The translations under genes were made by a program, and so were the position numbers. The notes under the pieces were generated by a model. It ran no database searches. It saw only the letters and a list, made by a program, of their open reading frames with translations, and was not told the DNA's origin. Source: Calorimonas adulescens (lineage in GTDB: Bacteria; Bacillota; Thermoanaerobacteria; Thermoanaerobacterales; UBA4877). Taken from it: DNA of 64,000 nucleotides. Of this stretch, positions 19,758-24,165 are shown piece by piece. The stretch's first letter is position 1; each line of letters starts with the position of its first letter. Location of the stretch: contig NZ_VTPS01000003.1 in the NCBI RefSeq assembly GCF_008274215.1, forward strand, positions 62,001-126,000. Direction: 5' to 3'.

Positions 19758-22472
19758 ATGCCAATAAGGTTTAGTCCGTCAGGACGATGGTTTTTATATG
19801 TGATAGCTGTTATAGTTATGCTGTTTATAATCATTGCAGGTGGAGCAGGTCTGATAGTAAACTATCAGTGGCTCTCCAGCTTAGGTTATGGAAAGATTTT
19901 TTTTGTCCGGTTTTTTGCAGAACTGGAGCTGGGCATCCCTGCCTTTTTAATAATTTTTTTCCTTCTTTACTTTTATTTTAATAAGATAAAGAGGGACTAT
20001 ATCAGATATACAGGTGATGTAATGTCACCTAAAGAGACAAAGAGGCTTAATATTTTTGTGCTGTGGGGTTCTGCCCTTATATCTGCAGTAATGTCCATAG
20101 AGCTTGCCAGCACAATGTGGCAAAACTTTTTAAACTACTTGCATTCAGCCGATTTTGGATATAATGACCCGATTTTTAATAAAGACCTGAGCCTGTATCT
20201 CTTTAAGCTGCCATTCTTAAATGGTGTTTATAACTTTTTGCTCTTTCTTATTGTAATACTGGTAGTCCTCACTGCTATAATATATGTGCTCATGTACTAT
20301 TCCAATGCAACAAGGTTTTTCAGATATTCTGAGGAGAATCATGCCTTCAGGTCTATCCCAAATAGAGAAATAATAATGATTGCCATAAACCAGGTCGCCA
20401 TACTGGGGCTGGTATTTTTTGTACTTCTCTCCTTTGGCTATTATTTAAAAGGATTTAACCTCTTGAATTCGCCTCTGGGGGTAGTGTACGGCGCTGGTTA
20501 TACAGATATACACGTGACGCTGCTCTTTAACAGGATACTCATAGGTTTATGTATTGCAGCAGGTATCATATTTGCGGTAGGCGGCCTCAGGAGAAACATA
20601 AGGCTTACTGCATCTGGACCGCTTCTGGTTATAGCTGTAGTGGTAGTGTCATATATAGCCAGTGCTGTTGTCCAGAATTTTGTAGTTTCGCCAAATGAGT
20701 TTAACAGAGAAAAGCCGTATATTAAAAACAATATCGAGTTTACACAACTCGCTTATGGTGTGAATAACATAAAGAGGATAAGCTTTGGAGATGTACAGGA
20801 TATAAGCGATGTTGATATGAACATGAACAGGAATACCATAGACAACATACGTATAAATGACTACAGGCCAGTGATTCAGGTTTACAATCAACTTCAGGGC
20901 ATACGGATGTATTATAGATTTAACGACGTAGATATTGATAGGTACAATATTGATGGTAAGCCAACAGAAGTCTTTCTATCTGCAAGGGAACTCGATAAGA
21001 ACAGGATTTCAGACCAGGCCAGGTCATGGATAAACATGCACCTTGTCTACACTCATGGCTATGGTGTGGCGGTAACCCCTGTAAACAAGGTGACTCCGGA
21101 AGGGCAGCCAGAATTCATTGTAAAGGACATACCACCTAAAGGGAGTATACAAATAAACAGGCCGGAGATCTATTTTGGTGAACTAACCAATGACTATGTT
21201 ATCGTTAATACTGATGCAAAAGAGTTTGACTATCCTGCCAGTTCGGGAGAAGATAACGTGTATACGGAGTATAGCGGCAAGACTGGCACAAAACTGGGAT
21301 TTTTTAATAGAATTTTATACACCTTGTACACAGGCGATGTAAGGCTGCTGTTTTCGAGTGATATAGGGCCTGAAAGCAGGATATTAATAAACAGGAATAT
21401 AATGGACAGGGCACAGAGGATTGCACCTTTTCTTATGTATGACGAAGACCCGTATCTTGTGATTGACAATGGCAAGCTTTACTGGATGTTAGATGCTTAT
21501 ACGGTAAGCAATAACTTCCCGTACTCCACGACTTCTGTCATAAATGGCAGGCAGTTTAATTATATAAGGAATTCGGTCAAGGTAGTCATTGACGCCTATG
21601 ACGGCTCTACTGACTTTTATATATATGACAGCAATGACCCTGTCATAAAGGTATATCAGAGCATATTTCCCTCCCTCTTCAAGCCTTTTGAGGCCATGCC
21701 CGAGGGGTTAAAAGAACATATAAGATATCCCCAAACGCTGTTTGACATACAGTCAGTTATATATGGGACATACCACATGGATAATGAACAGGTATTCTAT
21801 AACAAGGAAGACCTCTGGAACATAGCTAAAGAGAGATATCAGGAAGAGGTACAGGATATAGAGTCGCAATATATTTATATGGCGCTGCCTGACAATAGTG
21901 GTGAAGAAGAATTTATTATTATGGTACCTTACACACCGGCCACGAAAAACAATATGATATCATGGATGGCTGGGTATACAGACAGTGAAACCAAAAAGCC
22001 AATCCTTGAGATATATGAGTTTCCAAAAAATGTCCACGTGTATGGTCCTTTGGAGGTAGAAGCGCGTATTGATGAGGATGCCCATCTCTCACAACAGATA
22101 ACACTGTGGAATCAGAGCGGTTCGTCGGTGATACGTGGAAACACATTGGTTATACCAATAGACAGGTCTATACTATATGTAGAACCACTCTATATATCAT
22201 CCAGTGCTGAGAACAGCATACCAGAGGTAAAGCGTATAATAGTCTCTGACGGGTCAAAAATAGTTATGGCTGACACCATACAGGGTGCACTGGGGCAGCT
22301 CATTGGCAACCAGCAAGAAGCGACACAACCTGCTGCACCTGAAGTATCAACGGATGTAATCGTGCAGATAAGAGATGCGTATAACAAAGCAATAAATGCT
22401 TTGAAGGAGGGCAACTTTACAGAGTTTGGCAGGCTTATGGACGAGCTTGGAAAGATAATAAATGCCAAGTAG
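19758..22472 (+). CDS. UPF0182 family membrane protein
   Basis: The 904-residue protein has about seven hydrophobic helices in the first 310 residues. A large soluble, probably extracellular, part follows, with NRNTIDNIRINDYRP, WINMHLVYTHGYGVA and FGELTNDYVIVNT, all recognisable as UPF0182. The family is widespread in Actinobacteria, Firmicutes and cyanobacteria and has no settled function. The start at 19758 follows GAGGTG by 9 bases. A Pro/Ala/Thr linker (QQEATQPAAPEVST) and a short helical tail end the protein. The next gene starts 14 bases downstream. Confidence 0.9.
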   Translation: MPIRFSPSGRWFLYVIAVIVMLFIIIAGGAGLIVNYQWLSSLGYGKIFFVRFFAELELGIPAFLIIFFLLYFYFNKIKRDYIRYTGDVMSPKETKRLNIFVLWGSALISAVMSIELASTMWQNFLNYLHSADFGYNDPIFNKDLSLYLFKLPFLNGVYNFLLFLIVILVVLTAIIYVLMYYSNATRFFRYSEENHAFRSIPNREIIMIAINQVAILGLVFFVLLSFGYYLKGFNLLNSPLGVVYGAGYTDIHVTLLFNRILIGLCIAAGIIFAVGGLRRNIRLTASGPLLVIAVVVVSYIASAVVQNFVVSPNEFNREKPYIKNNIEFTQLAYGVNNIKRISFGDVQDISDVDMNMNRNTIDNIRINDYRPVIQVYNQLQGIRMYYRFNDVDIDRYNIDGKPTEVFLSARELDKNRISDQARSWINMHLVYTHGYGVAVTPVNKVTPEGQPEFIVKDIPPKGSIQINRPEIYFGELTNDYVIVNTDAKEFDYPASSGEDNVYTEYSGKTGTKLGFFNRILYTLYTGDVRLLFSSDIGPESRILINRNIMDRAQRIAPFLMYDEDPYLVIDNGKLYWMLDAYTVSNNFPYSTTSVINGRQFNYIRNSVKVVIDAYDGSTDFYIYDSNDPVIKVYQSIFPSLFKPFEAMPEGLKEHIRYPQTLFDIQSVIYGTYHMDNEQVFYNKEDLWNIAKERYQEEVQDIESQYIYMALPDNSGEEEFIIMVPYTPATKNNMISWMAGYTDSETKKPILEIYEFPKNVHVYGPLEVEARIDEDAHLSQQITLWNQSGSSVIRGNTLVIPIDRSILYVEPLYISSSAENSIPEVKRIIVSDGSKIVMADTIQGALGQLIGNQQEATQPAAPEVSTDVIVQIRDAYNKAINALKEGNFTEFGRLMDELGKIINAK

Positions 22473-22486
22473 TGAGGAGAGATGGT

Positions 22487-22780
22487 ATGGATATTGTGAT
22501 TGACCGTAAGGTAAAGGAGTACCTTAAAAGGAAAGGAGAGAATGCTATAACCGTTAAGTTGGTTACAGCAGATAGCTGCTGTGTACCTGGTGCCTTCCCT
22601 TCTGTAGAGGTTGGGCGACCAAAGGATGAGGAACTGGAGAGGTTTAAGAAGCTCAATGTTGATGGCACTGATGTCTATGTTCACAGTATGATAGAAGTAA
22701 AGGAACGGGGACTTAAGATTTATATGGAGGGATTGTCGTTTTTGAGCAGACCTGCAGTGGATGGGGTAAAGGTCTTCTAG
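22487..22780 (+). CDS. CC-motif small protein (CC/Se motif-like family)
   Basis: This 97-residue protein has one striking feature: a vicinal cysteine pair in TADSCCVPGAFPSVEVG (about residues 28-44). A VDGTDVYVHSMIEV strand and a hydrophobic ending follow. It resembles the small HesB-like group called CC/Se motif (seleno)proteins, where the second cysteine is selenocysteine in some members. Here both are ordinary TGC/TGT cysteine codons. Function is unknown; redox or metal chemistry at the CC pair is a guess. GAGGAGA lies 7 bases before the ATG. A decayed copy follows directly. Confidence 0.7.
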   Translation: MDIVIDRKVKEYLKRKGENAITVKLVTADSCCVPGAFPSVEVGRPKDEELERFKKLNVDGTDVYVHSMIEVKERGLKIYMEGLSFLSRPAVDGVKVF

Positions 22781-22787
22781 AAGTGTA

Positions 22788-22975
22788 AATTATGAGGACA
22801 GAGTAAAATACTGTACGTTTCCAACCTCATGCTGGGTCCATGTGCCAATCAAATCGGTTATGATGGGCAGTTCTGGGGATGTGGATTGGTTAAAGGATTT
22901 GAGGTATGTGTGCAAAACATTGATATAAAAGGGTATGGCATCAGACTTTATTTTGAGGGGATTAAACTATTTTAA
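22788..22975 (+). pseudogene. decayed second copy of the CC-motif small protein
   Basis: The 207 bases between the CC-motif gene and the HAD gene read as a broken relative of the former. One frame gives KYCTFPTSCWVHVPI, matching the SCC region but with TGG (Trp) in place of the second cysteine. After a shift a second frame gives GFEVCVQNIDIKGYGIRLYF and EGIKLF ending at TAA 22973-22975, matching the VYVHSMIEVKERGLKIYMEG region of the intact protein. No single frame is open through both parts and no good start is seen. The match is by eye over two segments. Confidence 0.6.
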
Positions 22976-22987
22976 GGGGGATACAGG

Positions 22988-23644
22988 ATGGGCTATAGGG
23001 CAGTGTTGTTTGACGTGGATGGAACAATAATTGATACAACTGATGCTATCATAAGCTCACTAAAGAGGGTACTCATGGAGTTTACCAGTATAGAATACAG
23101 CGAAGAAGAACTCTATGTAAGCATGGGTATAACAGGCAGCATGACCATGGACATATTTGGGGTTGCCGAGAAGGATAAGGCCATTAAGCTGTGGGACAGA
23201 TATTTCTTACAGCAATATGATAAGGTGTCATTTTTCCCTGGTGTACGTGAGACACTGGATTCTATTAAAGAGATGGGCTTTTTGACTGGTATTGTTACAT
23301 CGAAGACGAGGCATGAGCTTTCCTCTGAAAAGATACTGGATGAGGTCCGGGATGATTTTGACGTTATAGTATGCGCTGACGATGCTAAAAGGCCCAAACC
23401 CAATCCTGACCCTGTATTAAAAGCCATGGAAATTTTGAGTGTGAAAAGTAAAGAGTGTATCTATATTGGCGATAGTCTCTATGACCTTTTGGCTGCCAGA
23501 TCTGCTGGAGTATCTTTTGGTGTGGCAGTGTGGGGCTCAAAAAAACCTGAAAAGCTCTTTGAGCTGGACCCGGAGCATGTGTTTAGCGACCCGAGAGAGA
23601 TAGTGGATTTGCTTAAGGCAGGTGCTGCAAATGGGGGCAATTGA
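22988..23644 (+). CDS. HAD family hydrolase (phosphoglycolate phosphatase-like)
   Basis: The 218-residue protein has all HAD motifs: FDVDGTIIDT (residues 8-17) with the nucleophile and acid-base aspartates, VTSKTR near 104, KRPKPNPDPV near 137 with the lysine, and YIGDSLYDLLAARSAG near 160. The helical cap between residues 18 and 85 is subclass I, as in Gph and PpaX. It should remove phosphate from a small metabolite; the substrate cannot be fixed. AAGGGGG precedes the start. Its stop overlaps the start region of the repeat protein gene by 14 bases. Confidence 0.88.
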   Translation: MGYRAVLFDVDGTIIDTTDAIISSLKRVLMEFTSIEYSEEELYVSMGITGSMTMDIFGVAEKDKAIKLWDRYFLQQYDKVSFFPGVRETLDSIKEMGFLTGIVTSKTRHELSSEKILDEVRDDFDVIVCADDAKRPKPNPDPVLKAMEILSVKSKECIYIGDSLYDLLAARSAGVSFGVAVWGSKKPEKLFELDPEHVFSDPREIVDLLKAGAANGGN

Positions 23645-24134
23645 TGGCAGGATAGGTGGCATAATTGGTGGATATGACATACATGTGAGGGTGGGCAGTG
23701 GAAAGATGGAAGGCAGGATGGGAGGACAGATAAGCGGAGCCAATATTGACTTGGACTATGATTTTGACGAGGGGTATATAAGAGGCAGGATAGGTGGCAT
23801 AATTTTTGGTAAGGACTTGGATATGAATCTGTCAAGATATGGTGCATACGGGAGGTTAGGTGGTTTTATAGACGGTAATGATATAAATGTAAATGTTGCT
23901 GGCGACAGGGTTACAGGACGATGTGGAGGAGAAGTGGTTGGTTTCGACATAAGTCTGAAGATTAACGGCGATGAGGTGACGGGCCATCTGGGCGGGGATT
24001 TTATAGGAATGGATGTTGATGTGATAGCATCGGATGTGGAACCTGTCCTTATAGGGGTATGTGTGTCAATAGTGTATTATTATCAGACTATGCACAGAAA
24101 TAATAGCAGTTCTGGAGGGGGCAACAGCAACTAA
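23631..24134 (+). CDS. glycine-rich tandem-repeat protein, unknown function
   Basis: The 167-residue protein is built from about six repeats of 20-24 residues with the pattern G-R-(I/M/L/C)-GG-x(2-3)-G-x-(D/N)-(I/L)-x(10)-(V/M/I)-x-G. Examples start at GRIGGIIGGYDI, GRMGGQISGANI, GRIGGIIFGKDL, GRLGGFIDGNDI, GRCGGEVVGFDI and HLGGDFIGMDV. After the repeats comes a hydrophobic segment (EPVLIGVCVSIVYYY) and a Ser/Gly/Asn-rich tail. The regular spacing suggests stacked beta strands. No family is recognised. The start at 23631 follows AAGGCAGGTG and overlaps the HAD gene, so translation is coupled. Confidence 0.75.
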   Translation: MGAIDGRIGGIIGGYDIHVRVGSGKMEGRMGGQISGANIDLDYDFDEGYIRGRIGGIIFGKDLDMNLSRYGAYGRLGGFIDGNDINVNVAGDRVTGRCGGEVVGFDISLKINGDEVTGHLGGDFIGMDVDVIASDVEPVLIGVCVSIVYYYQTMHRNNSSSGGGNSN

Positions 24135-24165
24135 AGGCCGCCTCCTTTAATTTTGTCACGTTATG

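Follow-up and report, generated by a model that had tools for sequence, protein, structure and literature searches.

A six-repeat protein family, hosted mostly by Bacillota, that is probably a helix-plugged barrel of the beta-flower type

What kind of protein is encoded by the glycine-rich repeat ORF at positions 23631 to 24134 of the window (the whole stretch of 64,000 nucleotides analyzed here), and does it belong with the HAD phosphatase gene whose end it overlaps? We find that the ORF is a genuine gene of a real, unnamed bacterial protein family and that its product is probably a cytosolic, helix-plugged beta-flower, a degree of confidence that covers the architecture and the cytosolic location, not the function. 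The features of the locus are listed below; petals are the repeat units, with their strands predicted by AlphaFold (DSSP assignment) and the residues named after them marked by conservation.

22988..23644, plus strand: HAD_2 family hydrolase gene, overlapping the start of the six-repeat gene by 14 bases; a local partner only
23631..24134, plus strand: six-repeat protein gene, 167 amino acids, ATG start, defined from the ORF and its homologues
23634..23693, plus strand: petal 1, predicted strands at residues 2-8 and 15-21; R7, D16
23703..23762, plus strand: petal 2, predicted strands at residues 25-31 and 36-44; R29, N38
23775..23831, plus strand: petal 3, predicted strands at residues 49-54 and 61-67; R53, D62
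23841..23900, plus strand: petal 4, predicted strands at residues 71-76 and 83-90; R75, D84
23907..23966, plus strand: petal 5, predicted strands at residues 93-99 and 104-112; R97, C98, F105, D106
23973..24032, plus strand: petal 6, predicted strands at residues 115-121 and 126-134; H119, D128
24042..24107, plus strand: C-terminal hydrophobic helix, residues 138-159, with conserved P138 and Y149-Y151; candidate barrel plug, from prediction and conservation
24108..24131, plus strand: disordered Ser/Gly/Asn tail, residues 160-167 (pLDDT below 50)

The core G-R-x-G-G-x3-G-x-D/N occurs six times in units of about 22 residues, which fill the first 135 of the 167 residues, much as an earlier note on this DNA had described. 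Compared with that description, the GG-x3-G spacing is found in all six copies, the D is present in five copies and replaced by N in the other, and the sixth copy has H in place of R. The shorter motif G[RH]xGG, with its R or H at residues 7, 29, 53, 75, 97, and 119, occurs six times; when these residues were shuffled 20,000 times, it appeared 0.12 times on average and never more than 3 times. The hydrophobic segment that the note had placed after the repeats (about residues 138 to 152) and the Ser/Gly/Asn tail (to residue 167) were likewise borne out. At the DNA level the repeat is faint, with Tandem Repeats Finder reporting one short array (23639-23671), which marks the repeat units as old.

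The start codon does lie inside the HAD gene, the HAD ORF running on for 14 bases from the first base of the ATG. A Shine-Dalgarno-like stretch, AGGTG, can be read from the sequence at 23620-23624, and a GTG at 23622, three codons upstream of the ATG, is an alternative start. Because the open frame, 176 codons in all, begins just 9 codons before the ATG, the window protein has no room for a signal peptide. Downstream of the gene, a terminator scan found none, and a weak hairpin in 24120-24165 was no better than shuffles (z, -0.28).

That no family is recognized, as first claimed, holds at the sequence level: Pfam, NCBIfam, PHROGs, and PDB sequences yielded no convincing match. The only hint from Pfam was IAT_beta (E value, 0.33), below its cutoff. 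Five of nine members matched PHROG 1277, a "DNA methyltransferase," at an E value of ≤1 (best, 0.001), and there were matches to an S-layer lipoprotein chain (E value, 0.089) and to photoactive yellow protein (E value, 0.3); these were taken as chance or low-complexity matches. A literature search returned no account joining Thermoanaerobacter, hypothetical protein, and glycine-rich repeat, and no relative of the six-repeat protein was found in viral contigs or phage records.

With a nine-member profile, homologues were detected in 44 of 398 sampled genomes of the phylum, some of them broken or partial. The family is therefore present in about a tenth of these genomes, yet it has no entry in the libraries searched. 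Among 61 related genomes, 14 contain a homologue, counting the window's own genome with its one copy, and three genera within this set contain it in 4 of 9, 4 of 10, and 0 of 12 genomes. A second draw of 199 genomes, centered on that of the homologue L022, again sampled this phylum, for the most part repeating genomes of the 398, and gave homologues in 15. Farther away, one was found in 1 of 54 genomes from the phylum to which a MAG labeled Coprothermobacterota belongs, and others were found on four Deinococcus plasmids (72,556 records searched), of which the two inspected have intact frames. Thermoanaerobacter wiegelii and Thermoanaerobacterium saccharolyticum are among the named hosts, and by record titles most hosts are Bacillota. 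Degraded copies also exist; L011/L023 has an in-frame TAA, and others are truncated. The patchy presence, together with the stop-bearing and truncated copies, suggests that the gene is dispensable, and it looks like an optional, mostly stand-alone accessory.

The protein is conserved. Comparison with the sister-genus homologue L015 gave a dN of 0.16 and a dS of 1.41 by NG86 and 0.18 and 0.82 by YN00 (dN/dS, about 0.12 to 0.22), with 35/18/75 differences at the three codon positions. These values show that purifying selection acts on the frame between these two genera, the closest pair.

Several loci have unusual copies. At L080 (2154-3220; genome G372), two complete six-repeat genes are adjacent, a tandem duplication. 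A strongly diverged second copy, with most of its petal Arg residues lost, is found at L082 (3106-3624, minus-strand reading; genome G125) in a genome that also has a typical one. Locus L094 (1504-1698; genome G207) contains a miniature frame in which the C-terminal helix comes straight after a single petal, as though recombination had joined the start of petal 1 to petal 6.

Repeat number and residue conservation were read from a set of 50 proteins, consisting of the window protein, 38 referenced homologues, and 11 homologues cut out by script. The set leaves out same-genome duplicates (L001, L015 to L020, L024, and L035), L007 (the same protein as L008), the TAA-bearing L011/L023, the broken or partial L088 to L094, G255, and H2 and H4 of the four Deinococcus copies. 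Each homologue was taken to start at the start codon closest upstream of its first repeat, and the 11 scripted rows begin five residues ahead of that repeat. Since the starts were assigned or cut in this way, the set is uninformative on N-terminal extensions, and the missing signal peptide is a statement about the window frame only.

Every intact homologue read has six repeats. A simple motif count gave six in 40 of the 50 proteins, and the remaining ten were inspected by eye. In these the count was off through a stray match gained within the frame (L044, L046, L047, L072, and L084), one match lost via a changed residue (L006, L010, and L071), extra upstream residues (L080_0), or divergence (L082). 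Of 300 petal positions for the Arg (50 homologues with six petals each), 295 retain it, and H119 of the window protein corresponds to Arg in 49 of the 50. The facing Asp is kept at 221 of the 300 petal positions and is otherwise mostly Ser or Asn. Petal 5 is distinctive, with Cys98 in 30 and Phe105 in 45 of the 50 proteins. Units from different proteins resemble each other most when they occupy the same position (0.59, versus 0.52 for different positions across proteins and 0.53 within one protein), so the six-fold array predates the divergence of the family and is not undergoing rehomogenization.

AlphaFold model 1, of the window protein with a nine-sequence alignment (itself and eight homologues), has a pLDDT of 85.1 and a pTM of 0.83, the five models ranging from 80 to 85 in pLDDT. 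It has twelve strands, paired into one hairpin for each of the six repeats, followed by a helix at residues 138 to 159. Model 2, for which the query was L022, the most diverged homologue (35% identity), has the same layout with a best pLDDT of 81.1; the other four models of that job were weaker (pLDDT, 74 to 40, three of them between 40 and 73). The faces of the strands alternate in character, with a mean Kyte-Doolittle value of +3.38 on one and -2.53 on the other across the 50 homologues. With the polar face outside and the hydrophobic face inside, the lumen needs filling, and the helix after strand 12 is the obvious candidate. We infer a closed barrel with the helix in its lumen.

Comparison with solved structures by Foldseek found no match at an E value of ≤0.001 for model 1 or 2, with TM-scores of at most 0.5 among the matches listed, and viral structures contained no convincing match to the six-repeat model. 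VIA-align matched model 1 to generic barrels only (best, 7qh3; Z score, 7.9; rmsd, 3.8; 107 residues), and Tubby was absent among the matches listed for this model. For model 2, the best match was the invasin outer-membrane barrel 4e1t (Z score, 10.5; rmsd, 3.5; 159 residues), in an alignment that spans model 2 residues 2 to 170 and so crosses the helix. Further matches of model 2 were FapF (5o68; Z score, 9.4; rmsd, 3.3; 142 residues) and, at noise level by the tool's guide, the Tubby domain of human TULP1 (2fim; Z score, 5.5; rmsd, 4.2; 123 residues).

The same C-terminal segment could instead belong to a tail-anchored membrane protein, in which a cytoplasmic Gly-rich beta domain would sit on a C-terminal transmembrane helix; the hydrophobic helix with its Tyr cluster, the basic residues that come after it, and the Gly/Ser/Asn tail would fit such an arrangement. 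We consider this unlikely. The uncharged run of the helix has a median length of 14 residues (range, 9 to 17) in the 50 homologues, and its best 19-residue window exceeds the threshold of 1.6 in only 17 of them. By the positive-inside rule, an N-in/C-out tail anchor would need flank charges opposite to those found, which average -2.4 before the helix and +1.1 after it, the C-terminal side being the more positive in 45 of 50. Short, above the hydrophobicity threshold in a minority of homologues, and reversed in its charges, the helix makes a poor membrane anchor. Anchoring would also leave the hydrophobic strand faces surrounding an empty core, whereas model 2 aligns with a barrel across the helix.

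Quite unlikely, too, is a barrel that carries a lipid or small ligand in the manner of fatty-acid-binding proteins or LolA, with the helix as its lid. Fatty-acid-binding proteins, nitrobindin, and LolA are the commonest weak structural matches, but all of these fall below a Z score of 8, the folds have 10 or 11 strands, so that strand number as well as the six-fold repeat differs, and the helix is expected to occupy the lumen. The earlier note had entertained a beta-solenoid or stacked sheet. Such a fold, which might be structural or adhesive and which Gly-rich tandem repeats of about 22 residues might suggest, is very improbable, because solenoids usually vary in coil number whereas the repeats are fixed at six in all intact members read, and because AlphaFold predicts six short-stranded hairpins that end in a C-terminal helix and align with barrels, the simplest reading being a closed barrel.

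The proposed closed barrel with its inner helix has a close parallel in the recently described beta-flowers. These are symmetric shallow barrels of 8, 10, or 12 strands with four-, five-, or six-fold symmetry, many of which enclose a C-terminal hydrophobic helix, according to Durairaj et al. 2023 (PMC10584680). The same paper describes beta-flowers as mostly bacterial, with positively charged residues and hydrophobic loop tips, and gives a semiconserved [DNEQ]XXG at the hairpin tips (Pfam PF21784 to PF21786, clan CL0395); the authors compare the fold to the Tubby domain. The six-repeat protein resembles a six-fold beta-flower in its 12 short predicted strands, its six hairpins, one per repeat, and its C-terminal hydrophobic helix, and it too has positively charged residues and hydrophobic loop tips. 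It differs in having its own invariant GRxGGxxxGxD repeat, and the window protein has no room for a lipoprotein signal.

The Pfam models of beta-flowers do not reach this family. In hmmscan, PF21784, PF21785, and PF21786 matched neither the window protein nor the nine alignment members, they had no match in the window's genome at an E value of ≤10, and searches of 249 genomes with each gave 7 matches, none in six-repeat genes. Nor is [DNEQ]XXG a general feature of the family, being present at 84 of 299 GG-loop sites and 64 of 282 other-turn sites; it exceeds half only in the GG loops of petals 5 and 6, in a count for which the tips were placed by eye and "semiconserved" is a loose term. Among the literature matches listed for PF21784 to PF21786, Durairaj 2023 alone was relevant, the others being an unrelated word. 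Since the Pfam models miss it and the motif is not general, our call, which relies on the predicted models, is that the six-repeat family falls outside these Pfam families and is instead the beta-flower architecture in a new sequence variant. It would thereby widen the description of beta-flowers beyond the reach of the Pfam models.

Tubby, phospholipid scramblase, and LOR proteins have a 12-stranded barrel around a hydrophobic helix, and a circular permutation has been reported between beta-flowers and Tubby (both from PMC10584680). The six-repeat protein shares the 12-strand barrel plan in its predicted form, and 2fim is a weak structural match; in contrast, there is no sequence match, its strands and loops are shorter, and its helix follows strand 12. 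The LOR family PF04525 occurs in 1 of 119 genomes and is absent from the window's genome. We regard the likeness to Tubby as one of architecture, not of demonstrated common descent. The inverse autotransporter (invasin/intimin) barrel also has 12 strands (PMC6555100). It has a helix near the pore and provides the best structural match of model 2. However, the outside of the six-repeat barrel would be polar (mean Kyte-Doolittle value, -2.5 if the helix is inside), an inside-out chemistry, and the window protein is shorter and has no signal peptide, in a family whose hosts are mostly Bacillota. The resemblance to invasin and intimin is a likeness of shape only.

How might such a protein work? 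We propose that the six hairpins, one per GRxGGxxxGxD repeat, would close into a 12-stranded up-and-down barrel in the cytoplasm, hydrophobic inside and polar outside, the lumen of which would be filled by the C-terminal hydrophobic helix. In each petal, the invariant Arg would face Asp or Ser across the hairpin on the outer face. Because the N terminus and the end of strand 12 lie on the same side, an inner helix must run up the lumen, which would place Tyr149 to Tyr151 and the basic tail at the rim. The same rim would carry the six Arg residues and the six GGxPhixG loops, in which the Phi position is hydrophobic in all six (mean, 3.4 to 4.0). Loop tips, Arg, Tyr cluster, and basic tail together might serve for peripheral docking on an anionic surface, the simplest candidate being the cytoplasmic leaflet of the membrane, in the manner of Tubby-like barrels.

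Taken alone, this docking is a tentative suggestion, possible and on balance doubtful; our hypothesis is that the rim would suit an anionic membrane or a partner. The Arg-Asp pairing alone could explain the Arg, in which case the ring would have a purely structural role, and in GGxPhixG the hydrophobic residue may close off the lumen rather than point outwards. The diverged copy L082, which keeps few Arg residues, counts against the overall reading, and none of the genomic neighbors supports a membrane role. An improbable extension of the docking proposal is that the six-fold inside-out barrels found across Bacillota are bacterial counterparts of Tubby, in which the rim of Arg and loop tips would read anionic lipid and the plug helix would shift or leave as a switch. 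If this were true, the family would be the simplest repeat-built Tubby-like barrel and a model for the origin of that barrel by hairpin duplication. One hairpin repeated six times, with its Arg so nearly invariant, makes the family a good object for studying the origin of barrels by duplication and the kinship of beta-flowers and Tubby.

The coupling to a HAD phosphatase, which the earlier note had proposed, holds for the window's genome and a sister genus, where the genes overlap, and not elsewhere (2 of 28 genomes in total). The context survey covered 29 loci from these 28 genomes, two loci sharing one genome; of 247 neighboring ORFs, just the two adjacent HADs matched as HAD relatives. The HAD itself has PpaX as its nearest NCBIfam model, with a score below the cutoff. 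The overlap means cotranslation in this bacterial family only and does not imply a shared pathway. A role for the six-repeat protein as partner of the HAD phosphatase, or as its regulator, is suggested by the two overlapping gene pairs and is nevertheless most unlikely, as no HAD relative lies beside the homologues in the other 26 genomes and the neighbors there are unrelated.

Outside the HAD pairing, the six-repeat gene is mostly stand-alone, often beside a divergent gene, and its neighbors in the 28 genomes have no common functional theme. With names read from sequence, they include glucose-6-phosphate isomerase and nitroreductase in Thermoanaerobacter and Thermoanaerobacterium and, across other genomes, a PTS transporter, purine nucleoside phosphorylase, and a MurJ-like protein, among others. 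On plasmid pRadio1 of Deinococcus radiophilus, the homologue L071 (3929-4429) adjoins a cyclase family protein and kynU, annotated as tryptophan degradation; neither is found beside the D. deserti homologue.

Upstream of the HAD gene in the window, positions 22472-22780 encode a small CC-pair protein that matches NCBIfam NF041239, "CC/Se motif family (seleno)protein," with 55.8 bits against a cutoff of 40. The open stretch at 22781-22987 that separates this gene from the HAD gene ends in RLYFEGIKLF, which resembles KIYMEGLSFL close to the C terminus of the CC/Se protein; this stretch may be a decayed second copy of the CC/Se gene.
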